Shown: one piece after another, positions 16,487 through 35,061 of the stretch
Layout of the letters: each line of letters opens with the position of its first letter
Numbering within the stretch: the stretch's first letter is position 1
Source: an uncultured SAR86 cluster bacterium
Lineage (GTDB): Bacteria > Pseudomonadota > Gammaproteobacteria > Magnimaribacterales > TMED112
DNA length: 39,594 nt
Reading direction: 5' to 3'
NCBI GenBank assembly: GCA_902526535.1
Contig: CABZLG010000007.1
Coordinates: 1 to 39,594 of the forward strand
The notes under the pieces: generated by a model
Told to the model about the DNA's origin: nothing
The model's input: the letters and a program-made list of their open reading frames with translations, nothing else
The model's database searches: none
Made by a program: the position numbers and the translations under genes

Positions 16487-17173
16487 GTGAGCCAAAAGAT
16501 TTATATAGTCGAAGATGAACCCGATATTCGAGAAACATTAATATATAATTTTTCAAATGAGGGCTTCAAGGTTTTTACAGCTCCAAATGGTGAGGAAGCT
16601 CTCTCAAATATAAAGAAAATTTTACCTGACGTTTTGATACTAGACATAATGTTACCAGGTGTATCAGGGCTTGATGTTTGTAAGTCTATCAGAGCAGATG
16701 AAGATATTAAAGATATCTCAATTATTATGCTTACTGCGAAAGGTGAAGAAATTGATAGGGTTATTGGTTTTGAGCTTGGTGCAGATGACTATGTTACGAA
16801 ACCATTTAGTGTCAGAGAACTTATTCTTAGAGTTAAAGTTTTACTTAAAAAACAAAACGAATCTTTAGCTGCAAATAAATTAGTAACATTCGGTCCAATT
16901 CGCATAGATTTAGATGCTCATGAACTTAAAATAAATGATAAAGAAATCGTTTTAACTGCACTGGAATTTAAATTATTACAACATCTTGTTAAAAGAAAGG
17001 GCAGAGTTCAGACAAGAGAACAATTACTAGGTGATGTATGGGGATACAGCGCAGAAGTCACAACAAGAACTGTTGATACACATATAAAAAGATTAAGAGA
17101 AAAATTAGGCACTACATCAGACTATATTCAAACGATTAGAGGTGTGGGATATAGATTTACTAATGTTGATTAA
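16487..17173 (+). CDS. phoB: OmpR/PhoB family response regulator
   Basis: A 228-residue two-domain regulator. The receiver domain has acidic E9-D10-E11, the phosphoacceptor D53 in LILDIMLPG, T/S in IIMLTAKGEE and K in DYVTKPFS. A winged-helix DNA-binding domain follows, ending in TVDTHIKRLREKLG and TIRGVGYRF. Receiver wording (TAKGEEIDRVIGFELGADDYVTKPF) is closer to PhoB than to other OmpR paralogues I remember, and the paired kinase and nearby phosphate genes agree. The start is GTG at 16487 with no clear ribosome binding site. The stop overlaps the kinase start as TAATG. Assignment to phosphate control is strong but inferred. Confidence 0.85.
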   Translation: MSQKIYIVEDEPDIRETLIYNFSNEGFKVFTAPNGEEALSNIKKILPDVLILDIMLPGVSGLDVCKSIRADEDIKDISIIMLTAKGEEIDRVIGFELGADDYVTKPFSVRELILRVKVLLKKQNESLAANKLVTFGPIRIDLDAHELKINDKEIVLTALEFKLLQHLVKRKGRVQTREQLLGDVWGYSAEVTTRTVDTHIKRLREKLGTTSDYIQTIRGVGYRFTNVD

Positions 17174-18945
17174 TGCTTAACATTTTACAAAAAATAAAAA
17201 TATCAAGAATTTTTCTTCTTTCCTTATCTTTTTTAATATTTATCATTTTTATTGTTTCGACAATTTTTTCTTCATTTATATATAACAACTCAAGAGCTCA
17301 ATTAGTAGAATCACTTTACATGCAAGCTAAATCAATTGATCAGCTTCTACCAAGTTTTAAGCAGGACTTTGAATATAGTTATGACCTTATTGCAGATAAT
17401 CTGTCTGTTTCAGATACAAAGCAAAATGAACTTAGAGTGACGATTATTGACGGAAATTGGGATGTAATTGGTGACTCTGAAGTTTCAGCTGATGAACTAG
17501 TTAATGTAGAAAAACATTCACCAGAAAATAGAATTGAAATAAAAAATGCTCTGACTAATAAATTTGGTACTGCAACAAGAACTAGTGAAACTACAGGACA
17601 AGATCTAATCTACCTTGCTATATTAAGAAACAGCGACGATCTGACTGAGGGTGTTATAAGAGTTGCAATGCCTTTCAACATTTATACATCCTTTTTTAAT
17701 TTTTTTATTTATCCATTTATTTTATTGTTTGTATTAGCAATCGTATCCTCAAGCATCATGACATACAGTGTGGAAAGTAATATTAGACGGGATTTAACAA
17801 AACTTCTTAAAAATACAGAAAGGGCAATTAAAGGCAAACCAATTAAAACTTCTTTAACATCTGATACACAAATTGAAGGACTTTCTAAAGCAGTAGGTGA
17901 TATTTCCATTCGATTAAGTTCAGAAATTGATCAGGCTATGGATCAAAGAACTCAATTTGGTACAGTTTTAGATAGCATTAATCAGGGAGTAATTATATTT
18001 AGTAAAAACTTTAAAGTTAGATTCACGAATGATATAGCTTTAGAAATGTTTGGTAAACATCAATTTTTTTTAGGAGAAAAGATAAAATCAAAAAAATTAT
18101 CAGTAATAAATAAAATTTTGAAAGATGCAAAGAAGAATCTTTCATCTGAAGATAATCTTGATATTAAAGTAAAAGGAGAAGATAGAAACTATTTATTGAC
18201 TGCTACCAAAATGGAAACAACAAACGAATTGATTCTTGTTATAAATGATATTTCATCAATGAGAAAGTTAGAAGATCTTAGAAAACAGTTTGTTACAGAC
18301 GTATCCCATGAAATAAAAACTCCTATATCTGTTATTAGAGCAGGCTCTGAAACACTTTATTCAGGAGCAATTAATGATGAGAGGGTTTCAAATAAGTTTT
18401 TAAAATCAATTTTAGACAACTCTGAACGATTGAGTGAAATGGTTGATGATCTAATGGAGTTGGAAAAGATTGAGTTTGGTGGTTTAGTTTTAAATAAGGA
18501 AAAATTTAATGTTAATAATGAAATCCAACTTATTTTTGATGCCCAGCAAGCATTATTAGTAGACAAAAAGTTATCATTTAATAACTATATTGGTAAAGAT
18601 ATTTTTCTTAATACTGATAAAGAATCCTTCAGAACAGTCTTCTCAAATCTTATTAATAACAGTATTAAATATTCAAAACCTGGAGGTTTTATAAATTTAA
18701 CGGCTCTTAATAACAGTGAAGAAATAACAATTAAAATTGAAGATAATGGTCATGGTATTGAGAAACAACATTTAGATAAAATTTTTAATAGATTTTATAG
18801 GACTTCAAAAGCCAGAGCACATACAAAAGGAACAGGACTAGGTTTATCTCTAGTGAAACAATTAATTTCAAGAATGTATGGTGAAGTAAGAGTTGAATCA
18901 AAAGTATCTAAAGGAACATCTTTCTTTGTAAGCATTCCACATTAA
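17173..18945 (+). CDS. phoR: PhoR-like sensor histidine kinase
   Basis: A 590-residue membrane kinase that should phosphorylate the upstream regulator. Transmembrane segments at about 11-36 and 172-199 enclose an extracytoplasmic sensor region of roughly 130 residues. A HAMP-like linker and a PAS-like segment (about 255-360, starting TVLDSINQGVIIF) follow. The phosphoacceptor is H379 in FVTDVSHEIKTPISV. ATP-binding boxes are NLINNSIKYS, IEDNGHGI, FNRFYRT and KGTGLGLSLVKQL. E. coli PhoR lacks a large outside domain, whereas this layout resembles Bacillus-type PhoR, so the sensed signal may differ. It is followed after 16 bases by gspC on the same strand. Confidence 0.83.
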   Translation: MLNILQKIKISRIFLLSLSFLIFIIFIVSTIFSSFIYNNSRAQLVESLYMQAKSIDQLLPSFKQDFEYSYDLIADNLSVSDTKQNELRVTIIDGNWDVIGDSEVSADELVNVEKHSPENRIEIKNALTNKFGTATRTSETTGQDLIYLAILRNSDDLTEGVIRVAMPFNIYTSFFNFFIYPFILLFVLAIVSSSIMTYSVESNIRRDLTKLLKNTERAIKGKPIKTSLTSDTQIEGLSKAVGDISIRLSSEIDQAMDQRTQFGTVLDSINQGVIIFSKNFKVRFTNDIALEMFGKHQFFLGEKIKSKKLSVINKILKDAKKNLSSEDNLDIKVKGEDRNYLLTATKMETTNELILVINDISSMRKLEDLRKQFVTDVSHEIKTPISVIRAGSETLYSGAINDERVSNKFLKSILDNSERLSEMVDDLMELEKIEFGGLVLNKEKFNVNNEIQLIFDAQQALLVDKKLSFNNYIGKDIFLNTDKESFRTVFSNLINNSIKYSKPGGFINLTALNNSEEITIKIEDNGHGIEKQHLDKIFNRFYRTSKARAHTKGTGLGLSLVKQLISRMYGEVRVESKVSKGTSFFVSIPH

Positions 18946-18961
18946 TTGTAAAATTTACCAA

Positions 18962-19387
18962 ATGAATAAATGGGATCTGCTAAGGGTATTTTTAATGTCC
19001 TTACTCTTACTACTGTTATTGTCTTTTTACTATGTCCAGGGTTTTTTTAATTTTAATTATGCAGATATTAATGAAGAATTGCCTAAACCAATAATTTCAG
19101 ACAAATCTTTTGAGGAGTTTAAACCAAGTGAGGTTGATGTTAGTACAGCAAACAAATCTAATTTAGGTTTTGAACTTGTGGGTATTAGAGGAAATAATCC
19201 AGAAAGTACGATAATTATTCTTGAAAGAGATAATTATCGATTAGTTGAACAAGGACAAAATATAAGCTCAAGCATAATTTTTTCTCATATTGATGGTTCA
19301 AGAGCTTATTTTTTTGATGGACAAACCTATACATTTTTAGACATAATTGGAACAGAGACCTCTTTTAATAAAAACAGGATTAACTAA
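18962..19387 (+). CDS. gspC: type II secretion protein GspC (short form)
   Basis: A 141-residue inner-membrane clamp protein that links the secretin to the inner-membrane platform. It has a single hydrophobic segment at about residues 9-27 and a homology-region-like domain near 67-130 (FELVGIRGNNPESTIIILERDNYRLVEQG in broken form: GIRGNN, AIIIL-type strand, LVEQGQNI). It ends without a PDZ or coiled-coil module, so it is shorter than E. coli or Vibrio GspC. It stands 16 bases after phoR and three bases before gspD, which secures the assignment more than its sequence does. Confidence 0.82.
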   Translation: MNKWDLLRVFLMSLLLLLLLSFYYVQGFFNFNYADINEELPKPIISDKSFEEFKPSEVDVSTANKSNLGFELVGIRGNNPESTIIILERDNYRLVEQGQNISSSIIFSHIDGSRAYFFDGQTYTFLDIIGTETSFNKNRIN

Positions 19388-19390
19388 ACA

Positions 19391-21208
19391 ATGAAAAAAA
19401 TATTTTATATATTGTCTCTATCTTTATTTTTAATAAGCCAAGAGCAAAATATTTTTTATAAGGATGCTGATGTAAAAACATTTGCCCAAGATATTGCATT
19501 GCTAACTGATAAAACAGTTATTTTAGACCCAAGAGTTAAAGGCACTATCTCAGTTTATTCAGAATCCTCTCTGAATAAAGAATCTATATGGGAGGTATTT
19601 GTTTCGACTATGGAAGTTCAAGGCTATAGTGTATTAAAAGATGGTGACATTTTTAAAATAATTCCAGCTCAAGAAGGCATTAAAAATTTTAATGAAAACA
19701 ATGAACTTCCTGGTTCAATTGATACTCAAATAGTGACAGTAAATTATTCAAGTGCAAAAGATATAGTCAATGCAGTTAAACCGTTAGTAGGTGTCCGTTC
19801 TTATATCGTAGCTTTAAATAATGATAGAGAAATTTTAGTGTCTGATGATCTTGAGAATGTAATCAGAGTTGTAGAAATAATTAAAAACTTAGACAGTGAA
19901 TTAGACACTATGATTTCTGATCTTAAACTTGAAAATTTATCCTCTATAGAAGCATTAAGAATAATAAATTCTTTAAAATCTGATCCGAATAATAAACTTG
20001 ACAAATTGGGTGTTGCTACATTTCAAGGTTCAAATAAATTAATCTTTAGTGGTCCGAGTAATATTATCAATAGAGTAATTGAAATGTTACAAAAGATTGA
20101 TATTGATAATAGGCTTGAGGAGAATACAAAAGTTATTTATCTAAACTACTCAAAAGCAGAGGATATACTTAAGATTTTAAATGATGTATCAGGATCTTTT
20201 AATCAAGAGCAAAATTTTGATTACAAGACAGTAATAACTTCACATAATGAAACAAACTCGATAATTATTAGATCAAGTCCGCAATCCATAAAAACACTAA
20301 CCTCTATTGTTTCTCAGCTTGATATAAGAAGACCACAAGTTCTTGTTGAGGCAATTATAGTCGAAATATCTGAATCAATAGCAAGGTCTCTTGGAGTTGA
20401 CACAATCTACTCTGGTAGTAGTGAAGGCGATAAACCAATAGCTTTAACAAGATTTCCAAATAGCAATAGTCCCGATTTGTTGTCTTTATTAGGGGCCGCT
20501 GATTCAGATTCAGATTCTGTAACAAACTTTAATGCTACTTCTTCATTATTAGGTACCGCAGGTTTAGTGGCAGGACTAGGAAATACATTAAATGGCGAGG
20601 ATAATTTTGCTGTTTTACTCTCACTGTTAAGAGAAGATCAGGATTCAAATATTCTTTCTACTCCCTCAGTTGTAGCTCTTGATAATGAGGAAGCGTCACT
20701 ATTAGTAGGACAAGAAATACCTATTACTACAGGTGAATCATTAGGTTCAAATAACCTTACACCATTTAGAACTACGTCTAGAGAAGAAATTGGAGTTAAG
20801 CTTGAAATAAAGCCTCAGATAAATGAATCTGACTCAGTAGCATTATTTATCAGACAGGAAGTCTCAAGTATAGCTGGATCACAACTACCCAACTCAACAG
20901 ATTTAATAACTAATAAAAGAGAAATAGAAAGCACAATTCTTGCAGATGACAGGGAAATTATAGTCTTAGGTGGTCTGATTAATGAAGATGTTCAAGAATC
21001 AGTTAATAAAGTCCCTTTACTAGGTGATATTCCTATTGTTGGAGGACTATTTAGATCTTCAGCAAAATCTGTACAAAAAAGAAATCTTATGGTGTTCTTA
21101 AGGCCAACAATCCTTAGAGATTCTGTTACAACTAAAGATCTTTCGCAAGAGAAATTTAACTTGATTAGGGCTAAGCAAATATTTCAAGAATCCTTATTAG
21201 AAAATTAA
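19391..21208 (+). CDS. gspD: type II secretion secretin GspD
   Basis: Outer-membrane secretin of 605 residues forming the exit channel of the type II system. A signal peptide (about 1-16) precedes an N0 domain (about 20-95, FYKDADVKTFAQDIA) and N1-N3 repeats with the pattern VIYLNYSKAEDILKIL. The C-terminal secretin domain is marked by VEAIIVEIS, a Gly/Ser-rich hairpin segment and LLVGQEIPITTG. VLGGLINEDVQESVNKVPLLGDIPIVGGLF and MVFLRPTI follow (quoted in parts: VPLLGDIPIVGGLF). A small Asp-Ser repeat from three GATTCA-like hexamers sits near base 20504. Only one base separates it from gspE. Confidence 0.96.
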   Translation: MKKIFYILSLSLFLISQEQNIFYKDADVKTFAQDIALLTDKTVILDPRVKGTISVYSESSLNKESIWEVFVSTMEVQGYSVLKDGDIFKIIPAQEGIKNFNENNELPGSIDTQIVTVNYSSAKDIVNAVKPLVGVRSYIVALNNDREILVSDDLENVIRVVEIIKNLDSELDTMISDLKLENLSSIEALRIINSLKSDPNNKLDKLGVATFQGSNKLIFSGPSNIINRVIEMLQKIDIDNRLEENTKVIYLNYSKAEDILKILNDVSGSFNQEQNFDYKTVITSHNETNSIIIRSSPQSIKTLTSIVSQLDIRRPQVLVEAIIVEISESIARSLGVDTIYSGSSEGDKPIALTRFPNSNSPDLLSLLGAADSDSDSVTNFNATSSLLGTAGLVAGLGNTLNGEDNFAVLLSLLREDQDSNILSTPSVVALDNEEASLLVGQEIPITTGESLGSNNLTPFRTTSREEIGVKLEIKPQINESDSVALFIRQEVSSIAGSQLPNSTDLITNKREIESTILADDREIIVLGGLINEDVQESVNKVPLLGDIPIVGGLFRSSAKSVQKRNLMVFLRPTILRDSVTTKDLSQEKFNLIRAKQIFQESLLEN

Positions 21209-21209
21209 A

Positions 21210-22658
21210 ATGGAACTAGTTCTTCCTTATGCATTTTGCAAATTACATGGAATTGCTTTAGTAAATAATAAAAAAGTGTCTACTCTTCATTATTCTGGTG
21301 AGCTTAACCCAAAAATAATTTCAAATATTCAGCACTTATTCAACGAAAAGATAGAAACTAAAAATCATCAAATTAATGATTTTGAATCTTTTTTAACTGA
21401 AATTTACTCAGATAAATCATCTGATTATAACTTAGATAATTTAGATCAATTAAATTTAGAAAATCTTGCTAACTCAATCCAACCGTCTGATGACCTTTTG
21501 GATGATAAAAATAAAGGTCCAATAATTAAACTTATTAATGCAACGATAACAAGAGCTATCAAAGCTAGAGCTTCTGATATACATTTAGAGCCATTTGAAA
21601 ATAACTTAACCATAAGATTTCGTGTTGATGGTGTTTTGAAAGAGGTCCTTAAGTATCAAAAGAACATAACCCAAATGATAATTTCAAGAATAAAGATCAT
21701 GTCTAATCTTGACATTTCAGAACGTCGTTTACCTCAAGATGGAAGAATTTCAATAAATATTGGGAAAAAAGAAGTTGATTTAAGAGTTTCAACATTACCT
21801 TCTTCATTTGGTGAGAGGGTAGTTTTAAGAATACTAGAAAAGGATAAATCTCATGTAGAACTTGGAAATTTGGGATTTTCTAATGATATTCAAACAAAAT
21901 TTAAAAATGCATTATCAAAAAATGAGGGGATCATTTTAGTTACTGGACCAACAGGTTCTGGAAAAACCACCACTCTTTATTCAGGTCTTAAAAATATTTC
22001 TGATAGATCTCAAAATATTTTAACTATTGAAGACCCAGTTGAATATGCTCTCAATGGAATTGGTCAAACACAAGTAAATAGCAAAACCGGTTTGACGTTC
22101 GCTAAAGGTCTTAGAGCTATTTTAAGACAAGATCCTGACGTAGTAATGGTAGGAGAAATAAGAGATAAAGAAACAGCTGATATCGCTATTCAAGCAAGCT
22201 TAACAGGGCATCTAGTACTTTCAACAGTACACACAAATAGTGCTGTAAATGCAATTACTAGATTAAGAGATATGGGAATTGAACCATACTTACTATCTTC
22301 AAGTCTGTTATTTGTCTTATCACAGAGATTGGTTAGAAGATTATGTGTAAAGTGTAAAAAACCTGATAATGACCAAAAATCAATAAAATTAATGAAAAGC
22401 AATAATATTAAAGGTGAAATCTTTAAGCCGGTTGGTTGTAAGCATTGTGATGATACAGGATATAGTGGACGTCTAAGTATTGGTGAGTGCATCGTTGTAG
22501 ATGAAAAAATAAATGAACTTATCTACAAACAAGCATCAGAGGCAGAAATCACTGACTATGTTTTTAAAAATAATAAAAAAATCTTTTTAAATGGTCTTGA
22601 AGCTGTAATAGCAGGTGAGACATCAATAACAGAAATACTTAGGGTTTCACAAGAATAA
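21210..22658 (+). CDS. gspE: type II secretion ATPase GspE
   Basis: A 482-residue cytoplasmic secretion ATPase that powers pseudopilus assembly. Walker A GPTGSGKT is at 246-253. The Asp box and Walker B are in TIEDPVEY and VVMVGEIRDKETADIA, with the His box LSTVHTN. The four-cysteine zinc motif has C379 and C382 (CVKC) and C410 and C413 (CKHC). ASDIHLEP near 121-128 is the family N2 motif. The TAA overlaps the gspF ATG as TAATG, so translation is coupled. Confidence 0.97.
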   Translation: MELVLPYAFCKLHGIALVNNKKVSTLHYSGELNPKIISNIQHLFNEKIETKNHQINDFESFLTEIYSDKSSDYNLDNLDQLNLENLANSIQPSDDLLDDKNKGPIIKLINATITRAIKARASDIHLEPFENNLTIRFRVDGVLKEVLKYQKNITQMIISRIKIMSNLDISERRLPQDGRISINIGKKEVDLRVSTLPSSFGERVVLRILEKDKSHVELGNLGFSNDIQTKFKNALSKNEGIILVTGPTGSGKTTTLYSGLKNISDRSQNILTIEDPVEYALNGIGQTQVNSKTGLTFAKGLRAILRQDPDVVMVGEIRDKETADIAIQASLTGHLVLSTVHTNSAVNAITRLRDMGIEPYLLSSSLLFVLSQRLVRRLCVKCKKPDNDQKSIKLMKSNNIKGEIFKPVGCKHCDDTGYSGRLSIGECIVVDEKINELIYKQASEAEITDYVFKNNKKIFLNGLEAVIAGETSITEILRVSQE

Positions 22659-23854
22659 TGGCAACCTATAGATATCAAGCATTTGATAAAAATGAGAATA
22701 AAGTTAAAGGATTTATAACAGCTGATAGTAAATCGGATGCAATTAACCAGCTTCAACTTAAAGAATTAAATCCCTCAACAATAAATGAAGCTGCAAAAGA
22801 AAAATCAAACCTAAAAATATCTAAAAAAGATTTATCTATTTTTACTAAACAAGTTTCAGCATTATTAAGCTCTGGAACACCAATTGAAAAAACTTTAGAA
22901 ATAGTTAGCAATCAAACTATTAAAGATAAATTTTCACAAATACTTCATGCTATCAATGAAGAATTAAAGCAAGGAAAATGTTTGAGTGATTGTATGAAAG
23001 GCTATCCAAGAGTATTTGATTCTGTATATTGCTCCACAGTATTTGCTGGTGAAACATCCGCATCACTCTCCACAGTTTTTAAAGACTTATCAGATTATTT
23101 AGATAAAGAAATAAAGATTAGATCTCAAGTAATTGGAGCACTTACATATCCAGCTATTATTTTCTCAGTCTCTATAGTTGTTATTTATGCATTACTAAGC
23201 TTTGTACTTCCTCAAGTGGTAGATCAGTTTATTTCATCGAATGTATCCTTACCTGCATTAACAACTGCTTTACTATATTTATCTGATATATTTCCGGCAA
23301 TACTTATTTTAGTGTTATTAATTTTTTTAGGACCTATTTATCTTGTAAATTCAAATTGGCTAAGCCTTAAGAGAAAACTAGATATATCAAAGATTTTTTT
23401 GAATATTCCTTTCTTTGGCAAAATAATTTTATTCGATCAAACTGCTAGGTTTTGTTCATCAATGCATCTCATGACAAAGGCTGGTTTAAATACTATTGAA
23501 AGTTTAAATATAGCTAAGGAATCATTTAATAATCTTTATCTACGTTTAGAGCTTGATGTAATTGAAAATAGAGTCATTTCCGGTAGTTCATTAAGTCAAT
23601 CTTTTTCGGAATCTAAAGTCTTTCCTAGAGTTTTTGTTCAGTTACTAATTTCAGGTGATATGGGCGGGAAAGTTAGTGAAATGTTTGAAAAAATTAAGAA
23701 CTATTTAGACCAAGAAGTTGAGAGCGTAAGAAACATAATGTTAACTTTTTTACAGCCTTCAATTATTTTAGTAATGGGTGTGTTTGTTTTATTAATTGTT
23801 CTGTCCATAATGTTACCATTACTTCAAATGAATAATTTAATTTTTAATTTATGA
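22658..23854 (+). CDS. gspF: type II secretion inner-membrane protein GspF
   Basis: A 398-residue polytopic platform protein. It opens with the standard YRYQAFDKNENKVKGFI. Two repeated GspF domains follow (about 60-190 and 265-390), marked by FTKQVSALLSSGTPIEKTL and FCSSMHLMTKAGLNTIESL. Hydrophobic segments lie near 162-188, 212-230 and 365-390. Nearly full family length. It overlaps gspG by four bases (ATGA). Confidence 0.96.
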   Translation: MATYRYQAFDKNENKVKGFITADSKSDAINQLQLKELNPSTINEAAKEKSNLKISKKDLSIFTKQVSALLSSGTPIEKTLEIVSNQTIKDKFSQILHAINEELKQGKCLSDCMKGYPRVFDSVYCSTVFAGETSASLSTVFKDLSDYLDKEIKIRSQVIGALTYPAIIFSVSIVVIYALLSFVLPQVVDQFISSNVSLPALTTALLYLSDIFPAILILVLLIFLGPIYLVNSNWLSLKRKLDISKIFLNIPFFGKIILFDQTARFCSSMHLMTKAGLNTIESLNIAKESFNNLYLRLELDVIENRVISGSSLSQSFSESKVFPRVFVQLLISGDMGGKVSEMFEKIKNYLDQEVESVRNIMLTFLQPSIILVMGVFVLLIVLSIMLPLLQMNNLIFNL

Positions 23855-24240
23855 AAAAAATTCTCAAATCTGGTTTTACTTTATTGGAACTATTGATAGT
23901 CATTGTAATATTAGGTCTTCTAGTTTCTTTAGTATCAATTAATGTTTTGCCAACCTTAAGCAAGGCTTATTCTGAAACCGCCAAGGTAGATATATCAAGG
24001 ATAGAACAGGCACTAGTAATGTATAAGATAAATGAGGGTAATTATCCATCTGAAGATGAGGGTATTTCAAAATTAGTGGAAGGTGGATATCTTAATAAAA
24101 TTCCAAAAGATCCATGGGGTAATGAGTACTTTTATAAACCTCCACAAAATGCATCTAGCTATGAAGTTTACTCTCTTGGAGCCGATGCTAAAGAGGGTGG
24201 TGATGGTGAAAATGCAGATATTAGTAGCATCACTAAATAA
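23851..24240 (+). CDS. gspG: major pseudopilin GspG
   Basis: A 129-residue pseudopilin. The prepilin peptide ends at G8, the mature protein starts with F9, and E13 is the +5 glutamate (GFTLLELLIV). The C-terminal part has the typical DPWGNEYFYKPP and SLGADAKEGGDGENADI, the calcium-binding end of major pseudopilins. No prepilin peptidase gene (gspO/pilD) is in the window, so processing depends on one encoded elsewhere. It overlaps gspF by 4 bases and gspH by 29. Confidence 0.97.
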   Translation: MKKILKSGFTLLELLIVIVILGLLVSLVSINVLPTLSKAYSETAKVDISRIEQALVMYKINEGNYPSEDEGISKLVEGGYLNKIPKDPWGNEYFYKPPQNASSYEVYSLGADAKEGGDGENADISSITK

Positions 24241-24607
24241 AGGTTTCTCATTTATTGAAATCATTGTTACTTTGTTAATTATTTCTTTAGTCGGCAGTAG
24301 CTTTTATATATTTTTTCAAAACTCTAATATTCCAGTTTCTTTAAATGCAGAAATAAAAAACTTTCAAGACTTTGCTAACTATACTGGTAGCCAAGTAAAT
24401 ATATATGAAAATAGGTACGTTATCGTTTATCAGAATAATTCTGAAGTAGCAAAAGAGGTTAATTATCCAACAATAAAGGCAGTAATAGACATAAATAATA
24501 AATACATAACCATCGAAGATGGTGAGCCTTTTATATCGATTTATCCAGGTTGGGAATCAAATATAAAGGAAATTATTCTTTCAAATGATGAAATTATTGA
24601 AGTTTAA
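24212..24607 (+). CDS. gspH: minor pseudopilin GspH
   Basis: A 131-residue pseudopilin when started at the ATG at 24212, giving the leader MQILVASLNKG and cleavage before F12, with E16 at +5 (GFSFIEIIV). Longer in-frame starts lie deep inside gspG and would spoil the leader. Beyond the hydrophobic helix the protein is beta-rich without further recognisable motifs. The position between gspG and gspI supports the call. It overlaps gspI by 23 bases. Confidence 0.87.
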   Translation: MQILVASLNKGFSFIEIIVTLLIISLVGSSFYIFFQNSNIPVSLNAEIKNFQDFANYTGSQVNIYENRYVIVYQNNSEVAKEVNYPTIKAVIDINNKYITIEDGEPFISIYPGWESNIKEIILSNDEIIEV

Positions 24608-24932
24608 AAAACTAACAAAAGGTTTTTCACTCATCGAGGTGGTTGTATCCCTTTTAATTCTATCAATTACATTTACAGCCTTTTCATTGCTATTAGATCA
24701 AAATCTCAAAGCACAGCTTCAAAAGGAAAAATATGTCTATAAAACTACAAAAGAAATAAATCTACTTACTCTATATTCCAATAAATCTTCAACCGATGAT
24801 GTTTCCCTTAAAAAATTTTTAGGGGTAAAAAAAGAAAGGGAGAAAATACTATCTTCATTTGGAATAAGAAGAGAAATTGAGATTATTTTTGTTGATGGTG
24901 ATAAAGAAATAAAAATAAAAATTATCAGATAA
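24585..24932 (+). CDS. gspI: minor pseudopilin GspI
   Basis: A 115-residue pseudopilin with leader MMKLLKFKKLTKG, cleavage before F14 and E18 at +5 (GFSLIEVVVSLLIL). The start is either of two adjacent ATGs (24585 or 24588). The rest is short and lysine-rich. One base separates it from gspJ. Confidence 0.87.
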   Translation: MMKLLKFKKLTKGFSLIEVVVSLLILSITFTAFSLLLDQNLKAQLQKEKYVYKTTKEINLLTLYSNKSSTDDVSLKKFLGVKKEREKILSSFGIRREIEIIFVDGDKEIKIKIIR

Positions 24933-24933
24933 A

Positions 24934-25527
24934 ATGAGAAGCGGTTTCACAATCATCGAAGTTCTAGTTGCTCTTTTAGCTGCGTCCCTAATTGCTTTAA
25001 TGTCGTTCGAATACTTATCTAATGTTGTAAATTTAGAGACAAAAGTAAAAATTAAGATTTCAAAGGATAGAGATGAATTAAATACTGGAAATATAATAAG
25101 GTTAGATCTATTACAATCTATTCCTTTCTTATTTAAAGATGAAGCAGGAAGAAAGGTTTCAACACCATTTTTTGGAAATCAAAATAATACTTTGATGTCA
25201 TTTGTTTCTTTATCTACATCAGATAATGCAAAAGATAAATCTAAACTCAGGAGAGTAAACTACTATATTGAAAATGATAATTTAGTTAGACAAACTTCGC
25301 TTCCAAATAATAAAGCCGTTGTTTTATCAAAAAGAATACTTCTTAAAGATATTAAGAATTATCAAATTTTGTTTGGCGAAGATTTAAGTTTACTAGATGA
25401 AAAATGGCCCAATAATCAAATATCTGATTCAAATGTTAAACAAAATAAAAGTTATCCCAAATTAATTGTATTTTCTTATTCAATTGAACAAGAGGAGAGG
25501 GTGCTAATTTTGAGCACTTATAAATGA
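24934..25527 (+). CDS. gspJ: minor pseudopilin GspJ
   Basis: A 197-residue pseudopilin with a very short leader (MRSG), mature start F5 and E9 at +5 (GFTIIEVLVALL). The globular part has the GspJ-like LRRVNYYIENDNLVRQTS. It forms the tip with GspI and GspK in known systems. Its stop overlaps the gspK ATG as ATGA. Confidence 0.9.
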   Translation: MRSGFTIIEVLVALLAASLIALMSFEYLSNVVNLETKVKIKISKDRDELNTGNIIRLDLLQSIPFLFKDEAGRKVSTPFFGNQNNTLMSFVSLSTSDNAKDKSKLRRVNYYIENDNLVRQTSLPNNKAVVLSKRILLKDIKNYQILFGEDLSLLDEKWPNNQISDSNVKQNKSYPKLIVFSYSIEQEERVLILSTYK

Positions 25528-26480
25528 AAAAAGGATTTATCTTAATAAGCACATTATCACTTGTAACGATACTTAGTTTTTTGACTATTTTGATTAGTAA
25601 ACAAATTTTTAATGACTCTGTATCAACAAATATTTACCAAGAATCTATTAAAAAAAGAATAGAGCTAATTAATTATGAAAAATTTATAACTGAAAATTTA
25701 CTTAATAATTCAAATTTATTAAGAAATTTAAATATTGCTGAAAAGGAATTTAATTTCATAGCTAAAAGATCTTTTTCAAATTTAACTATTGAACTAGAGG
25801 ATATGAATTCATGTTTTAATTTAAATGCCTTAGTTAAGAGTAAAAATGGTATAACAGAAAAAAATGATGAAAATGTATTAAATTTTCTTGTGTTTTTAAG
25901 CAAATCATTCGTAAACAAAAATTCTCATATTGAGCTTTTGCATAGAATAGTTGATTCGATTGATACAAATAATTTCCCAGAAACTTACGGGGCAGAGGAT
26001 TTGTATTATATTTCTAATGAGAGATTAAATTTAGCATCAGATCAAAATTTTTATCACAAAAGTCAGATAAAAGACCTTAATTTAAATTTCCTAACTGATG
26101 CTGACTTTCAAAAAATTTATGGAAATATATGTGCTTTACCTTCTAATGAAATTAAATTAAATATCAATAATATTAATTTTAATAATCAAAAGGTTTTTCA
26201 CTCTATATTTTCGGATTTAACGGTAAAAGATATAGAAAAAATTATTTTAAATAAGCCAGTAACAGGATATTTAAATTATAAAGATTTAGTTGACCGTACC
26301 TCAATAAACCAAATTAAACTTAAAAATAAATATATTGTCTTTAAGCCTATTTTTATAAAAATTAAATATACTCTTCAAATTGAAGATTACATGTTTAAAT
26401 TAATTAGTTTTATAGATTTATCTAATAGAGAAAATAACATAATCTACAGAACCATAAGTAATGAAAATATTTATTTTTAA
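25524..26480 (+). CDS. gspK: minor pseudopilin GspK
   Basis: A 318-residue tip pseudopilin. The leader MKKG is followed by F5, and position +5 is Ser9 rather than Glu, as is normal for GspK, which caps the filament. MNSCFNLNALV is the family segment after the N-terminal helix, and the body is an alpha-helical SAM-like domain. It overlaps gspL by 20 bases. Confidence 0.92.
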   Translation: MKKGFILISTLSLVTILSFLTILISKQIFNDSVSTNIYQESIKKRIELINYEKFITENLLNNSNLLRNLNIAEKEFNFIAKRSFSNLTIELEDMNSCFNLNALVKSKNGITEKNDENVLNFLVFLSKSFVNKNSHIELLHRIVDSIDTNNFPETYGAEDLYYISNERLNLASDQNFYHKSQIKDLNLNFLTDADFQKIYGNICALPSNEIKLNINNINFNNQKVFHSIFSDLTVKDIEKIILNKPVTGYLNYKDLVDRTSINQIKLKNKYIVFKPIFIKIKYTLQIEDYMFKLISFIDLSNRENNIIYRTISNENIYF

Positions 26481-27483
26481 TGATCTAGAAACAGGCAGTT
26501 ATTTTGATTATAAAAATGTTTCTACGTGTAAATACTCAACCTTAGAAAACGAAAAAGATGTGTTATTTGTATTTCCAGATCAAATGCTGACGCACGTAAA
26601 TGAAACTGAGAAATACAAAAAAAGAGCAAATTTAGAAGCTAAGCTAATCAATGATTCATTAACGTCTTCACTAAATATTGATACTAATTTAAATGTCCTT
26701 AAATGTTCTCTTGAAAAAGGTAATTATTTTCTGATAAATGATAATAATCTTAAAAAAATAAAAAACCTTTTTCAAAACTTTGAAAACGATGTACTAATTA
26801 CTTCAGATGTGTTGTTTTTTAGTGAAATTTTTAAAGAAAATATCAATTACTTAGATGACTATTATCTCAATACTAACTCGCAGTATTTAAAATTTTCAAA
26901 AAATGCTTTAAAAGTCCTCAAATACAAAGGTTCTGAATTTAAAAAAATTGTTGATGATGATCTAATTAAAAATGTTAATTCTCAGTTTGATAGCTATAAA
27001 CTTAACACCTTTAATATTGGAAATTTAATTAACTTTGAAAAAAATAAAAAATATGTCTTTGGATTAATTTCAGCTGTTGTTTTAATTAACTTAGTAGGGA
27101 TAGGCAATCTTATTAATCAAACTTTTAAATTAAATTCATTTGATAACATTATTCTAGAGCTCTACGAAGATATTTATCCCCTTGAAAAGCCATCAAATGT
27201 AGAACAAGCAATTAATAAAAAAATTGAGAACCTTAATTTACAAGAATCAAAAGTTTTGAAGTTAATCTACAAAATCTCATCTTCAAGGCTTAAAAATGGA
27301 CGATTAGTAGATCTCTATTACTCAAAAGAGTTGGATAAGTTTGAATTTGAAATTCTATTTAATAATTCATCAGAGGAGATTATCTTCTTAAATGAACAAG
27401 CCTTTGAAGGAAACAGTTTTAAAAAAGTTAGCTCAAGAACAGATAAAGGGTTAGTAGTTACAAAATTTATATATGAAATTTAA
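26461..27483 (+). CDS. gspL: type II secretion protein GspL
   Basis: A 340-residue bitopic inner-membrane protein that recruits the GspE ATPase. A cytoplasmic domain (about 1-195) begins MKIFIFNDLETG and contains the GspL-like VLFVFPDQMLTHV. One transmembrane segment (about 198-220, YVFGLISAVVLINLVGIG) and a periplasmic ferredoxin-like part (about 255-340) follow. Sequence similarity to the family is weak; the architecture and place in the operon decide the call. It overlaps gspM by 11 bases. Confidence 0.82.
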   Translation: MKIFIFNDLETGSYFDYKNVSTCKYSTLENEKDVLFVFPDQMLTHVNETEKYKKRANLEAKLINDSLTSSLNIDTNLNVLKCSLEKGNYFLINDNNLKKIKNLFQNFENDVLITSDVLFFSEIFKENINYLDDYYLNTNSQYLKFSKNALKVLKYKGSEFKKIVDDDLIKNVNSQFDSYKLNTFNIGNLINFEKNKKYVFGLISAVVLINLVGIGNLINQTFKLNSFDNIILELYEDIYPLEKPSNVEQAINKKIENLNLQESKVLKLIYKISSSRLKNGRLVDLYYSKELDKFEFEILFNNSSEEIIFLNEQAFEGNSFKKVSSRTDKGLVVTKFIYEI

Positions 27484-27889
27484 ATTATTAAAGAATAATA
27501 AAAAATTATTTTCAATTATTGGGTTCTCACTCCTTTTTTTAATTTTTATATTTTTAGAAAATATTCTGATAGATAATCTATTTGAGATGAGGGCTAAATA
27601 CGACCAGAAAAATCAAGTTTTCAATGATCAAAAACAAAAAATTTCTCAATTAAAAATGTATGAAAACAATAAAAATACCAAGAATTTAGTTGAAAATCTT
27701 GAGCTTTTCCTCAAAGACAAAAAGATTTCTTACTCCATAGATGGCGCTTTATTTTTATTTGATAATCTAGCACCGGGCAAATTAATTGAAATTCTTAATT
27801 ACGTACAATTAAATAATATTGAGCCAAATGTAATAAAAATTTCAGGAAATGAATCAACTTTGAATTTAACAATTGAAGTTACTGCTTAA
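27473..27889 (+). CDS. gspM: type II secretion protein GspM
   Basis: A 138-residue inner-membrane protein with a basic start (MKFKLLKNNKK), one hydrophobic segment (about 12-34), a coiled-coil-like stretch (about 36-75, rich in Gln, Lys and Asn) and a small C-terminal ferredoxin-like domain. In known systems it stabilises GspL. Its sequence is not distinctive. The call rests on size, topology and position between gspL and gspN. Confidence 0.8.
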   Translation: MKFKLLKNNKKLFSIIGFSLLFLIFIFLENILIDNLFEMRAKYDQKNQVFNDQKQKISQLKMYENNKNTKNLVENLELFLKDKKISYSIDGALFLFDNLAPGKLIEILNYVQLNNIEPNVIKISGNESTLNLTIEVTA

Positions 27890-28535
27890 AATTCTTTTTT
27901 CAATATTTGCACTATTAGTAATTTTCCTAGTAGTCATATTTTTTACACCAATAAATTTAATTGTCAAAGCACCTTTGCAGTCTTATGGTATTTCTTATGA
28001 AAATGCAGAAGGAAATATATTTTCTGGAGATTTTAGGAACGTTGAATTAGCAAATCTTTCAATTAACAATATTAATTACAGGAACTCTTATTCTCATATA
28101 GGTTTAAAAACAAATATCACGGATGGCTTTTACTTTACGTCAACTATTATAACTAGTTTTGATTTAAGAAAAATTACGGTTGGTAACACAAAGTATAACC
28201 GCGATTTTAAGCTTTCATTTATTCCTGTTATAAATATAGAAACCGAACTAGAAGAGTTGATTCTTGAAGACTTTAAATGCAAAGGAATAAATGGTGATGC
28301 TTACATAAAAAGCAGAATTTTTAAGGAACGTTTAATTGGTGAACTTAGTTGCACAGATGACTCATACAAAATAATACTATTCGACAGGAAATATAATCAG
28401 TTAGGTTTAATAACAACAGACTTTAATTATATTTATCTCAACATTAAAGACAGTGCTCTTAATGAAAATTTATCTATCTTAAATATCAATGGTGGAATAA
28501 GTCTAAAGATTCCTGTTAAGGATTTGCTTGAATAA
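27873..28535 (+). CDS. gspN: type II secretion protein GspN
   Basis: A 220-residue bitopic protein starting from a TTG at 27873. It has one hydrophobic segment (about 6-27) and a periplasmic beta-rich part with ENAEGNIFSGDFRNV, which corresponds to the GTLW.G-type opening of GspN. GspN is an accessory component not found in all type II systems. It overlaps gspM by 17 bases and the convergent ppx gene by 33 bases, so it closes the operon. Confidence 0.8.
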   Translation: MKLLLKILFSIFALLVIFLVVIFFTPINLIVKAPLQSYGISYENAEGNIFSGDFRNVELANLSINNINYRNSYSHIGLKTNITDGFYFTSTIITSFDLRKITVGNTKYNRDFKLSFIPVINIETELEELILEDFKCKGINGDAYIKSRIFKERLIGELSCTDDSYKIILFDRKYNQLGLITTDFNYIYLNIKDSALNENLSILNINGGISLKIPVKDLLE

Positions 28536-30165: not shown

Positions 30166-30216
30166 GTAAAAGTATTAAAAAGAGGGTATAGTATAACGAA
30201 ATTATCTCTCTGATGA

Positions 30217-31476
30217 ATGGCACTAGTTGAATTAACAATTTTTGGAGTACCTCTTATTCTTTTTTCTGCTGCAATGCTTGGCTTTTTTACAGCATATGGT
30301 GTTGGAGCTAATGATGTAGCTAATGCAATGGGTACCTCAGTTGGTAGCAAGGTGTTAACTATTTCTCAGGCTGTACTCATAGCTGCGATTTTTGAATTTC
30401 TAGGTGCGTTTTTTGCTGGTGGAGGGGTTACCCAAACAATAAGAAAAGGGGTAATAGATCCTGAGTTGTTCATTGGTCAGCAGGAGATTCTTATCTATGG
30501 CATGATTTCATCACTATTTGCAGCCGGTGTTTGGCTTTTAGTAGCAAGTATTAGAGGCTGGCCTGTATCTACAACACATACTATAGTTGGTGCAATTGTA
30601 GGTTTTGGCATATATGCGTTAGGCTCAGATAAGATTAACTGGTCTGTAGTAGGCAACATTTCATTATCTTGGTTAACTTCGCCGATATCATCTGGTCTTC
30701 TAGCCGCTTTAATTTACTGGATATGTAAAGAATTTATTATTACGAAACAAAGTAAATTTCAGTTTTTAATAATTAATTTTTATATTTTCCTTGCGGGCTT
30801 TGCCATCTCACTTATCACAATAACAAAAGGTTTAAAAAATATTCTTAAGGATAGCGAAGTAGTTTTAACATTTTCTGATAGTGTTTTATATTCAGTAATT
30901 TCAGCTATTGTTTTTACTTTTTTATTCTATTCCTTTTCAAGATCAAGACTGTCAAAAAATCAATCAAGCGAATCTCAATTTGCTTATTTGATGATCTTTA
31001 CATCTTGTGCAGTAGCGTTTGCTCACGGATCGAATGATGTGGCGAATGCAATAGGCCCATTAGCAGCAGTGTACCAAGCTTCATATGAGTTATTAGATCA
31101 GCCATATAATTCCGAAACACCGCTATGGATTTTATTATTAGGTGCAGTGGGAATAGTTATAGGTCTAGCAACTTTGGGGTATAGAGTTATGAAAACTATA
31201 GGAGAGAGGATAGTAACCTTAACACCAAGCAAAGGATTTTCAGCACAATTGTCAGCAGCTTTAACAGTCGTTTTGGCCAGTCAATTAAATATGCCTGTTT
31301 CAACAACTCATACTCTTGTGGGAGCTGTTATTGGGATAGGCTTAGTAGAAGGAATCAAGTCTGTAAATCTGGCTTCAGTTAGAACAATATTTATCTCATG
31401 GGTTGTCACACTTCCTATCGGTGCAGCACTTTCAATAATTTTTCTAGAATTATTTATGAATTTATTTACATATTAA
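30217..31476 (+). CDS. PiT family inorganic phosphate transporter
   Basis: A 419-residue inner-membrane phosphate permease of the Pho4/PiT family. It carries the family's duplicated signature: GANDVANAMGT at 30-40 and GSNDVANAIGP at 271-281. Each half also has the PVSTTHTIVGAIVG / PVSTTHTLVGAVIG segment. About ten or more hydrophobic segments are visible. These carriers cotransport phosphate or metal-phosphate with cations. Its stop lies 8 bases before the Pho-box-like site of the next operon. The divergent 51 bases shared with ppk2 contain an A+T-rich stretch with TATAGTATAA but no clear Pho box. Confidence 0.95.
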   Translation: MALVELTIFGVPLILFSAAMLGFFTAYGVGANDVANAMGTSVGSKVLTISQAVLIAAIFEFLGAFFAGGGVTQTIRKGVIDPELFIGQQEILIYGMISSLFAAGVWLLVASIRGWPVSTTHTIVGAIVGFGIYALGSDKINWSVVGNISLSWLTSPISSGLLAALIYWICKEFIITKQSKFQFLIINFYIFLAGFAISLITITKGLKNILKDSEVVLTFSDSVLYSVISAIVFTFLFYSFSRSRLSKNQSSESQFAYLMIFTSCAVAFAHGSNDVANAIGPLAAVYQASYELLDQPYNSETPLWILLLGAVGIVIGLATLGYRVMKTIGERIVTLTPSKGFSAQLSAALTVVLASQLNMPVSTTHTLVGAVIGIGLVEGIKSVNLASVRTIFISWVVTLPIGAALSIIFLELFMNLFTY

Positions 31477-31484
31477 ATACATAC

Positions 31485-31502
31485 TTGTCACAAATCTGAC
31501 AT
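31485..31502 (+). promoter_or_regulatory. Pho box-like PhoB binding site before the receptor-phytase operon
   Basis: TTGTCAC (31485-31491), a four-base spacer AAAT and CTGACAT (31496-31502). Against the E. coli half-site CTGTCAT these match at 5 and 6 of 7 positions, with the right 11-base repeat and A+T spacer; TTGTCAC is itself a half-site used in E. coli. A+T-rich -10 candidates lie at about 31509-31518, and the ribosome binding site GAGGA at 31529-31533 precedes the ATG at 31539. Binding is inferred. Confidence 0.65.
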
Positions 31503-31538
31503 CACTCATATTTAAATTATTAATCACTGAGGATTAAA

Positions 31539-34076
31539 ATGAAAAAGTTTATAACTTTAATAATTTTGAGTTCGTTATATTTAGTATCCCAAGAAGATGC
31601 TAACGAAGATATTGAAGAAATTGTTGCGGTTGGAACAAAAGCAAGCCTTAAATCTGCACTTGATAAGCAGAAAGATTCAAATCAAGTGGTTTCAATTGTT
31701 GACTCTGATGCAATAGGCGAATTTCCTGATGAAACAGCTGCTGAAGCAGTGAGAAGACTTTCTGGTGTCTCAGTTGAGAACGACCAAGGTGAAGGTAGAT
31801 ACATAACTTTAAGAGGTATGTCAGGAGATCTAAATGGAGTAACACTTAATGGAGCAACGGTACCAGCTCCAGAGGGCGGTAGAAAAGTTCTACTCGATGG
31901 TCTTCCAACTGAACTGCTGGACTCTATTGAAGTTTATAAAACACTAATCCCTTCACAAGACCTCGAAGGCATAGGTGGAAGAATTGAATTTAAAACAAAA
32001 AAAGCTACTGAATTAGATAAGAGATTAGTAAAGATAAAATACGATCAATCATATAATGATTTTTCTGGTGAAGCAGATAGCCCAAAGTACTCTTTGACAT
32101 ATGGCGAGAAGTTTAGCGATGCATTTGGTGCTATTTTAGGGTACACATTTCAAAGTAAACACATAATCTCTAATAACAATGAAACAGGTTATGAGCCATG
32201 GGGGATTGCTGATAATGGAAACAAATACCTTGCTAGAGACTGGGAAATGAGGTTTTATGACTTGACTAGAGAAAGGCAAGGTTTTACAGCAGATTTTGAC
32301 TTGGCTTTAAATGATGACACATCACTTTTTTATAATTTCTTATTTAATAAATATGAAGATGATGAGATTAGATTTAAAGATGAATATCGCGCAAGAAATT
32401 TAGTAGAGTCCTCTGTTACACCTACTTCTGCATCTTATCAAAGAATTACCGCAGATAAAGAAACAAGAAAAAGAATAGAAGTAAGAACAATTGAAACCAA
32501 AATATTTGGGGGTGAGAGCAGACTAGGCATGTATAACACCAAATTTCAATTTAGTGAATCATTTGCAGAAGAGGATGATACCAATAATGTTGATGCTAAA
32601 TTTCGAGCTCAGTGTCGTATTAGAAGTGGTGATGATATTTGTGGCACCTACAGCTGGGCAAATCCAAAATTTATAAGCTTATCTTTAGCGCCTCGAGGAC
32701 AGATGCTTACTGATCCATCAGAGTATGACTGGGACGAGCTCGAAATAGATTATGGTTTAATTCAAGATCGTGAGGATGCTTTTAAAATTGATTTTGAAAG
32801 TGATCCATTCGATTTTAATGGGAATGTCATGTCAATTGAATTTGGCGCTAAATCAAGTGAAAGAATTAAATCAAATAGAAAGGGCAATGTAGATGGTTCA
32901 GGTGATGTAGCACAAGGTATGTTAACTTACTCACCCTCAGCACCAAATAACTTGTGGTATTTTCCAGACGCACTATCTTTTTTTGCTAATCCCTCATTAG
33001 TCTTTCCTTTGCAAAATCAATTTAGGCCTCTGGATTTGGATCTTGCAGCTTTCTGGAGCACTAAAGAAGAAATATTTGCACTATATTTCATGACTACTAT
33101 AGAAACAGATAATGCTGTAGTTGTGGCTGGCTTTAGAAACGAAGATACATCATTTGAAACTTATGGTTTCAACGATGGTGATGAGCAAGATAGATTAGAA
33201 TTTGAAAATGACCATAGCTTTTTAGCACCAAGTATTAATGTAAAATATTTCTTGAATGATAAAGTGCAATTAAGAGCTGCAGCTTATCGTTCGCTTTCTA
33301 GACCAGGATTCGAACAAACTGCACCCGTTCCCGATATTGGAGATGGAAATGGTGATGGTGAGTGGTCTGGTTCAATGGGTAACCCAGATCTTAAACCATA
33401 TGAAGCAAATAATTATGATTTAGGATTTGAATACTATGGAGATGAATCTTTCTTTTCAGCAGGTCTTTATTACAAAGGTATATCTAACACTATTTATCCA
33501 AGAGTGCTCGGCAATCAAGTAGTTGGGGGAATTTTCTTTTCAGATTTAGAGACCTTTGCTAATGCAGGAGATTCATCAATCCTAGGATATGAACTAAATT
33601 ACTTTACAGAGCTTGATGAATATTTACCTCTAGAAGGATTTTTTGTGTCAGCTAATGTTACATATAACGACGGAGAAAGTGATTTTGCTCCAGGTGGAGA
33701 TAATACTGAAACATTTACTATTCCTTTTAGAAAGCTTTCAGAAGAAGCAGCTAATTTTTCTCTTGGATATGATAAAGGAAAATTTGATATTAGATTTTCT
33801 GTAAATTATAGATCCAGTTATCTTGATTACCTTGGTGACGAAGGTGAAGAACTATTCAATGATGATTTTGGTTATGGTTATATGAGATTTACTGATGATT
33901 ATTATTCTTATGATCTTGTTGCAAAATATAAATACACAGAAAATTTATCATTAAGATTTGAAGGGAAAAATTTAGATAATAGACCAGAGTTCTATTATTG
34001 GAATTCTCCTGATAGACTATCCCAGTATGATGAATATGGTTACTGGATGTCATTCGGCTTTAGATACAATTTCTAA
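31539..34076 (+). CDS. TonB-dependent outer-membrane receptor, probable organophosphate/phytate uptake
   Basis: An 845-residue outer-membrane receptor. Signal peptide (about 1-17), then a TonB-box-like EEIVAVG near 26-32. The plug domain carries SDAIGEFPDETAAEAVRRLSGV (given here as family landmarks DAIGEFPDET and AVRRLSGV), GEGRYITLRGM and TLNGATVPAPEGG. The beta barrel ends in an aromatic FGFRYNF, with the terminal Phe needed for outer-membrane assembly. It resembles the Caulobacter/Xanthomonas type of receptor. The ligand is inferred: a Pho-box-like site lies upstream and a phytase is encoded immediately downstream with overlap, so inositol phosphates or their products are the best guess. 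Confidence 0.9.
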   Translation: MKKFITLIILSSLYLVSQEDANEDIEEIVAVGTKASLKSALDKQKDSNQVVSIVDSDAIGEFPDETAAEAVRRLSGVSVENDQGEGRYITLRGMSGDLNGVTLNGATVPAPEGGRKVLLDGLPTELLDSIEVYKTLIPSQDLEGIGGRIEFKTKKATELDKRLVKIKYDQSYNDFSGEADSPKYSLTYGEKFSDAFGAILGYTFQSKHIISNNNETGYEPWGIADNGNKYLARDWEMRFYDLTRERQGFTADFDLALNDDTSLFYNFLFNKYEDDEIRFKDEYRARNLVESSVTPTSASYQRITADKETRKRIEVRTIETKIFGGESRLGMYNTKFQFSESFAEEDDTNNVDAKFRAQCRIRSGDDICGTYSWANPKFISLSLAPRGQMLTDPSEYDWDELEIDYGLIQDREDAFKIDFESDPFDFNGNVMSIEFGAKSSERIKSNRKGNVDGSGDVAQGMLTYSPSAPNNLWYFPDALSFFANPSLVFPLQNQFRPLDLDLAAFWSTKEEIFALYFMTTIETDNAVVVAGFRNEDTSFETYGFNDGDEQDRLEFENDHSFLAPSINVKYFLNDKVQLRAAAYRSLSRPGFEQTAPVPDIGDGNGDGEWSGSMGNPDLKPYEANNYDLGFEYYGDESFFSAGLYYKGISNTIYPRVLGNQVVGGIFFSDLETFANAGDSSILGYELNYFTELDEYLPLEGFFVSANVTYNDGESDFAPGGDNTETFTIPFRKLSEEAANFSLGYDKGKFDIRFSVNYRSSYLDYLGDEGEELFNDDFGYGYMRFTDDYYSYDLVAKYKYTENLSLRFEGKNLDNRPEFYYWNSPDRLSQYDEYGYWMSFGFRYNF

Positions 34077-35061
34077 AATTTTTAATAAAACCCTTAAAGC
34101 GATAATTTTGATTATTGCTTTTATTCTTCTTTCTGCTTGCGGTGGTGAGAAAGAAACTTTTGTAGTTGAGTATGACTATGAAACACCTCCAATAGCTTCA
34201 GAAGGAGATGCTGCAGACGATCCTGCAATATTTCTAACTGAAGGAGATCCACTTATCCTAGGTACTGATAAAACCGCTGGAATGTATATATATAGTTTTA
34301 CGGGCGAAGAACTTGCTTATTATGATAACGGAAAGCCAAATAATGTAGACGTAAGAGATTCATGGTTTGCTTATACAGATAGGTCAGATAATTCTGTCCA
34401 GTATGCAAAATTATTTGAAAATATTTCTTTAGCTGTATATCCAGAAATAAATATTTATGGCATTTGCATAGGTATAGTCGATTCAGAGTTAAGAGCAATA
34501 GTGACTGAAGAAGAGGGTGTAAATATTCAGTATTGGAATTTAGAAAAACAAAAATTAATCAAAACCATTGACATTACAGCAGATGAAGAAAATGTTCCTG
34601 CTGCTGGCAATGAAGCAGAAGGGTGTGTATTTGACGAGGACAATGGCCATATATTTATTTCAAGAGAAGGAGCAAAAGGTATTTTAAAAGTTTTTGATAC
34701 AGAAAACCTTGAGCTGATTAAACAAATAGATTCTAGAGATGGCAATATTGGCGGCGATCCTGAGGGAATTGCTGTCTATAAAACAAGTGCTAAAGACGGC
34801 TTTATAATCTTGTCATCACAAGGGGATAATAAATTTAACATGTATAACAGACAATATCCCTTTGATTATCAAGGTTCTTTTCGAATTAAAGATGTGGAGC
34901 ATACTGATGGTTTAGATGTAACATCGGTTTCTTTTGAAAGATTTCCAAAAGGTTTCTTAATTGTTCATGACGGAGAAAATCTTCCAGATAATCAAAATTT
35001 TAAAATTGTTGATATGGAAAGAATTCTAAAAAAAAAAGTAGCTCCTGGCTGGATGTACTAA
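34027..35061 (+). CDS. beta-propeller phytase, lipoprotein
   Basis: A 3-phytase of the six-bladed, calcium-dependent type that strips phosphate from inositol hexakisphosphate. Landmarks in order: DDPAIFL, LGTDKTAGMYIYSFTGEE, NNVDVR, AYTDRSDNS, EAEGCVFDEDNGHIFISRE, DPEGIAVYK, ILSSQGDNKFNMYNR and EHTDGLDVTS. The signal peptide ends in a lipobox LLSAC with Cys38, so the enzyme is anchored to a membrane and probably outer-surface or periplasm-facing. The start is unclear: ATGs at 34027, 34030 and 34036 lie inside the receptor gene and give a long n-region. A start just after the receptor stop would need a non-standard codon. It ends just after an A10 tract. Confidence 0.87.
   Translation: MMNMVTGCHSALDTISKIFNKTLKAIILIIAFILLSACGGEKETFVVEYDYETPPIASEGDAADDPAIFLTEGDPLILGTDKTAGMYIYSFTGEELAYYDNGKPNNVDVRDSWFAYTDRSDNSVQYAKLFENISLAVYPEINIYGICIGIVDSELRAIVTEEEGVNIQYWNLEKQKLIKTIDITADEENVPAAGNEAEGCVFDEDNGHIFISREGAKGILKVFDTENLELIKQIDSRDGNIGGDPEGIAVYKTSAKDGFIILSSQGDNKFNMYNRQYPFDYQGSFRIKDVEHTDGLDVTSVSFERFPKGFLIVHDGENLPDNQNFKIVDMERILKKKVAPGWMY
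35028..35037 (+). repeat. A10 homopolymer near the phytase 3' end
   Basis: Ten consecutive A residues, read as Lys codons in the phytase frame. A -1 slip here moves the reading frame directly into the DedA frame, which otherwise has no normal start codon. The tract could also simply be a place of sequencing or replication length errors. Confidence 0.9.

Follow-up and report, generated by a model that had tools for sequence, protein, structure and literature searches.

A conserved PHO-box-like element and probable promoter ahead of a TonB-dependent receptor and phytase gene pair in SAR86 bacteria

SAR86 is an abundant ocean lineage which has hardly been cultivated. The DNA analysed here, called the window throughout, is a stretch of 39,594 nucleotides which represents contig C7 of a 771-kb SAR86 assembly (71% complete). 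Within this window, a gene for a PiT-type phosphate transporter is followed by genes for a TonB-dependent receptor and a beta-propeller phytase-like protein, and ppx and ppk2, which are read leftward, are also neighbours (Table 1). The phytase reading frame overlaps the end of the receptor by 50 bp (34027-34076); its true start may be located further in, ahead of a lipoprotein-like signal ending in LLSAC. The divergent ppk2 and PiT genes have a conserved gap of their own (30166-30216) which contains no box. A GGGTATAGTATAA-like stretch in this gap is strongly conserved in relatives and probably represents facing -10 elements. Further upstream, phoB and phoR lead into gspC, after a gap of 17 bp, and a run of type II secretion genes (window 16487-28535). 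The order phoB-phoR-gspC-gspD is kept in two related genomes (G017 and G006).

Table 1. Features of the locus, with coordinates in the window
Feature	Position	Strand	Basis
PhoB-like response regulator, likely the binding protein	16487..17173	+	TIGR02154, DNA-contact residues
PhoR-like histidine kinase, Cache-like outer domain	17173..18945	+	profiles, structure model
PiT-type phosphate transporter, upstream neighbour of the element	30217..31476	+	PF01384
PHO-box-like direct repeat TTGTCACAAATCTGACAT, TTGTCAC AAAT CTGACAT	31485..31502	+	consensus, matrix, conservation
First (upstream) half-site TTGTCAC	31485..31491	+	alignment of genus loci
Second (downstream) half-site CTGACAT	31496..31502	+	11 bp in phase with first half-site
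-10-like hexamer TAAATT	31513..31518	+	exactly 10 bp past box
Shine-Dalgarno-like GAGGA ahead of receptor ATG	31529..31533	+	sequence reading
TonB-dependent receptor, first gene past the element	31539..34076	+	PF00593, PF07715, TIGR01782
Beta-propeller phytase-like protein	34027..35061	+	PF02333; profile match to Bacillus phytase 3amr, E 1.8e-47

An earlier note on this DNA had described a Pho-box-like element between PiT and the receptor. On re-reading, its coordinates (31485-31502), its sequence and its 7+4+7 layout proved exact, as did the distances of 8 bases from the PiT stop and 36 bases to the receptor ATG. The agreement with the E. coli PHO-box consensus at 11 of 14 half-site positions was also reproduced. 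The element takes the form of a PHO box, with two direct repeats close to CTGTCAT and 11 bp apart. Likewise, the E. coli boxes of phoA, pstS, ugpB and phoB consist of two 7-bp TGTMAY repeats 11 bp apart, and the ugpB box (TTGTCATCTTTCTGACAC) agrees with the element at 12 of 14 half-site positions. The strongest feature of the region was overlooked in the earlier note: a -10-like TAnnnT hexamer starts exactly 10 bp past the box.

How strong is such a match in comparison with chance? Consensus matches with at most three mismatches amount to 38 in the 771-kb genome versus 31 for the reversed pattern, and to two in the window versus 3.2 expected. By this measure, a nominally better site with two mismatches is located within gspD (20946, minus strand). 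Since these counts equal the control, consensus counting was dropped as evidence for the element. A PhoB matrix was built from 12 boxes of E. coli MG1655 regarded as PHO boxes; psiE was dropped as it offered no usable site. With 17.3 bits, the element is the top site of the window (runner-up 13.5 bits) and falls inside the range of the E. coli boxes (9.4-23.1 bits). In its own 62-bp gap, none of 2000 shuffles scored as high (p 0.0005, which is the floor of the procedure). Against the genomic background, which the earlier note had proposed for judging the site, the outcome is borderline: the element is the best of the window, but chance alone should give about 0.05 scores at least as high in the window and about 1.0 in the 771-kb genome. 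These background counts, like those of the consensus, are what a chance match would produce, and the matrix score by itself proves nothing about the element. It is conservation which makes the element convincing. The earlier observation that no equally good site precedes the other candidate genes stands, with best scores of -0.9, 2.8, -2.9 and 0.4 bits in the 200 bp upstream of ppk2, PiT, the PhoD-like gene and phoB, respectively.

Conservation was examined within the genus, where phytase matches occur in 16 of 21 genomes, its own included. Loci of 13 relatives were compared, excluding G006 and G007, where the locus is available as contig-edge fragments only. The gene order ppx-ppk2 / PiT-receptor-phytase-HIT-LPLAT is retained in the compared relatives. 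A full-length receptor is present in 11 of them which, together with the window, gives 12 loci for alignment. The earlier note had named conservation in relatives with the same operon as a check, and a TGTMAY half-site was found within the PiT-receptor gap in all 12 loci, window included. The distance from box to ATG is 33-40 bp in most of them while the remainder of the gap diverges. In the first half-site, TGT is invariant (12/12) and is followed by C (10) or A (2), an invariant A (12/12), and C (11) or T (1). The second half-site is looser, with T in 9, G in 10 and A in 10 of the 12 loci. In the two relatives with a truncated receptor (G018 and G011, loci L040 and L041), only the last 64 and 44 receptor codons are matched and the element is lost too. 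The phytase directly follows PiT in both loci; this loss of receptor and box may be an assembly error. In another relative (L032, G013), an inverted repeat with T residues behind it carries the first half-site in its loop, so that the box may share DNA with a PiT terminator.

Individually, the genus loci differ in strength. Shuffling gave p values of about 0.01 or below in 8 of 12 loci. The non-significant ones are L033, L034 and L035 (p 0.07-0.23), in which the second half-site is degenerate, and L042 (p 0.053). Seven representatives were taken so that shared ancestry weighs less. Their summed score, comprising the matrix and the -10 letters, reached a z of 9.6, and none of 3000 shuffle sets was as high.

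The -10-like hexamer is fixed in its position relative to the box. Ten of the 12 genus loci have TAnnnT at spacing 10, and any other spacing from 3 to 19 is seen in at most three. In these loci, the matrix alone chose the same register in 11 of 12 and was off by one repeat in L042. As the register anchors had been placed by eye, the test was repeated blind with the E. coli matrix on a wider set of phytase loci, described below. The spacing also bears on whether PhoB is needed at all: an ordinary sigma-70 promoter could have a -35 that happens to be TTGTCA, and TTGTCA, 16 bp and CATATT (31485-31512) indeed agree with such a promoter at 9 of 12 positions. However, in this register TAnnnT should appear at box spacings 4, 5 and 6 (16-18 bp past the first hexamer), where it is present in 3, 0 and 0 of the 12 loci. 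The conserved spacing, in contrast, places the hexamer 22 bp from TTGTCA, which is too long for sigma-70 alone. A sigma-70 promoter also leaves unexplained the second repeat and the signal that the E. coli matrix detects outside the genus, and we regard it as improbable.

This signal was obtained from 80 phytase loci of the genome_contigs collection. A long ORF lies just upstream of the phytase in 37 of these, 34 of which are outside the genus. The 34 loci have a median score of 10.9 bits versus 1.8 bits at 1595 control ORF starts (p 2e-13), and 21 of them reach at least 10 bits, compared with 4.3% of the controls. Among outside-genus sites of at least 9 bits, TAnnnT occurs at spacing 10 in 18 of 24 versus 7 of 97 controls, and at another spacing (5-16) in just one of the 24. 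For these sites of at least 9 bits the homology of the upstream ORF was checked: 23 of 24 are homologous to the window receptor, with 28-49% identity, while the upstream ORF of L130, counted among the outside-genus loci, showed no homology to it. With receptors clustered at 60% identity, the spacing of 10 was found in 10 of 15 clusters. One example belongs to an uncultured member of the Pseudomonadales (L123, 19.3 bits, TAGAGT). The layout also occurs in Oleibacter (L138), Oxalobacteraceae (L153), Pseudomonas saliphila (L172) and Alcanivorax (L129 and L140). Three SAR86 loci (L110, L111 and L115) possess receptor and phytase and have no good site (0.6-5.9 bits). Directly upstream of the phytase itself, the median is 2.2 bits with a close upstream gene (46 loci) and 4.6 bits without one (34 loci), against 1.8 bits in controls. 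This places the signal at the head of the operon. A layout in which the PHO box replaces the -35 element and the -10 follows about 10 bp on is thus found both within the genus and outside it. The element recurs at one position in all 12 loci, and diverse genera share it with a fixed promoter spacing; this refutes a chance match, which we consider very improbable.

In the genome of the window, the element is the sole exact match to the composite pattern (box, 10 bp, TAnnnT). When up to one mismatch is allowed, 87 sites fit it over 21 genomes versus 46 for the reversed pattern, and four of eight exact matches are the element's locus; these counts are descriptive and not a test because the pattern was written after the sites were known.

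A candidate for the binding protein is encoded in the same window. TIGR02154 is its top NCBIfam match, with 258.6 bits. As this remains under the cut-off of 296.2 bits, we call the protein PhoB-like. Its identity to E. coli PhoB is 40%, and the two proteins share the recognition helix RTVDxHIxRLR and the wing QTxRGxGYRF. Four PhoB residues which contact the polymerase are named in the accessible part of PMC3348028: W184, G185, V190 and D192. The first three are retained in the window protein and D192 is replaced by T. The sequence and position of the element, its conservation, its promoter geometry and the presence of a PhoB whose DNA-contact surface matches are direct results. Together, the conservation in 12 of 12 loci and the -10 at spacing 10 support the reading of the earlier note, a putative PhoB site for the receptor-phytase operon. 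We consider it highly probable that the element is the operator (PHO box) of a promoter which PhoB activates and from which the genes for the TonB-dependent receptor and the phytase are transcribed.

The PhoB of the locus is matched at E 1e-60 in 15 of 21 genomes. Counting phoB and phytase together, 14 genomes have both, two phytase only, one phoB only and four neither (Fisher 0.011), with the G006 phytase in this count being a contig-edge fragment. We do not use this co-occurrence as evidence because the two genes are linked; the G017 contig ends inside gspD.

Could another regulator of the OmpR/PhoB family read these TGTCAC direct repeats? This question is raised by two relatives, G010 and G012, in which tandem TTGTCAC-type repeats lie ahead of a PhoD phosphatase and a 126-aa protein (L206 and L208). 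A PhoB model was searched in 7 of 21 genomes, picked for having no match or no partner gene. In G010 (97% complete), the model detected no PhoB despite the PHO-like tandem boxes ahead of phoD; the matches in both genomes are receiver-only or long hybrid proteins. Yet completeness is just 74% for G012, G010 lacks 3%, the PhoB of the locus is present in 15 of 21 genomes, and the genes downstream of the element are phosphorus genes, which fits PhoB. A different family member at the element is therefore unlikely in our judgement, and PhoB remains the preferred regulator.

Other boxes in the genus were also inspected. A small protein similar to the 126-aa one is found beside like repeats in L211, and in G005 and G010 boxes precede TonB-dependent receptors that carry a CarboxypepD_reg domain (L218 and L220). 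A HAD acid phosphatase of the window's own genome (L209, G000:C4:13191) was considered as a second regulon gene, with a box of 11.0 bits and TATATT at spacing 10. Among 20 orthologous loci, this box is present in its own locus and G009 only, and none of the other 18 exceeds 4.5 bits, leaving a weak lead only. The pst genes of G006 were tried as a positive control and rejected, as no box above 12 bits was found bar one within the pstS reading frame. Upstream of phoB, 13 of 15 loci lack a site of at least 12 bits (L051 and L054 have one match each), and a second PiT paralogue lacks such a site in 10 of 10 loci.

The sensory side of the system is less conventional. The outer domain of PhoR comprises 140 residues, and its sequence-profile matches are all under the cut-offs. 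A predicted model (pLDDT 78) resembles the Cache domains of WalK (9a5d, E 9.6e-6; 5is1, E 5.1e-4). PstS and PstC models match, the latter above its cut-off, in one of 21 genomes each, G006 in both cases, and neither matches in the window's own assembly (71% complete). The pst genes of G006 are grouped with a porin and a phoU-like gene. The genus, G006 excepted, seems to run PhoBR without PstSCAB. It is conceivable, though we hold this only tentatively, that this Pho regulon without PstSCAB employs the Cache-type PhoR, encoded in the type II secretion run, to read directly either phosphate or a phosphate ester and, via PhoB, to induce an outer-membrane operon for organic-phosphorus uptake and hydrolysis.

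For the promoter itself, we infer PhoB binding, activation, a low-phosphate response, the start site and the substrate as follows. Under low phosphate, phosphorylated PhoB would occupy both direct repeats as a head-to-tail dimer, replacing the -35 element, and would hold RNA polymerase on the weak -10 located 10 bp downstream. The transcript would begin about 7 bp past TAAATT, with a leader of roughly 14 nt which includes the GAGGA ribosome site. The receptor would then import an organic phosphorus compound, phytate-like judging by its neighbour, the phytase would free phosphate and PiT would take it in. Such a promoter would be internal to the PiT-receptor-phytase run and, for this reason, receptor and phytase could rise without PiT.

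These features can be related to known systems. PhoB sites overlapping the -35 are described in the accessible part of PMC3348028. The E. coli phoA promoter shares the geometry of the element (box, 10 bp, TATAGT); among seven E. coli promoters, TAnnnT at spacing 10 occurs in phoA only, and phoE and ugpB have TA there. In contrast to E. coli, the element is a single box in an AT-rich genome, its first half ends in CAC rather than CAT, its second half is loose in relatives and no box lies ahead of the SAR86 phoB. In Caulobacter crescentus, the PhoB regulon includes a phytase and several TonB-dependent receptors according to the accessible part of PMC11208175, so the regulatory link proposed here is of a known kind; Caulobacter uses PstSCAB, whereas the SAR86 genus is mostly without it. 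As far as their accessible parts go, further papers report a beta-propeller phytase in a photic-zone SAR86 clade (PMC7367891), predict Pho boxes in marine plcP clusters (PMC4796936) and describe transcription of Pho genes and pit by SAR86 under low phosphate (PMC12981677); in those parts, none of the three mentions a PHO box ahead of the receptor-phytase operon. Titles and abstract openings of the literature on SAR86 phytase and PhoB, and on Pho box, phytase and TonB receptor, likewise contained no account of the promoter. The element is a well-supported new example of a familiar type of switch.

The conserved candidate promoter ties the SAR86 receptor-phytase pair to phosphate stress and offers a marker of phosphorus limitation in metatranscriptomes. 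It also suggests phosphorus compounds as the substrate of the receptor. The retention of PhoBR in the absence of PstSCAB makes one ask how these bacteria sense phosphate. Lastly, the layout is shared ahead of receptor-phytase pairs in Alcanivorax, Oleibacter, Pseudomonas, Oxalobacteraceae and others, suggesting that this regulatory unit is old.
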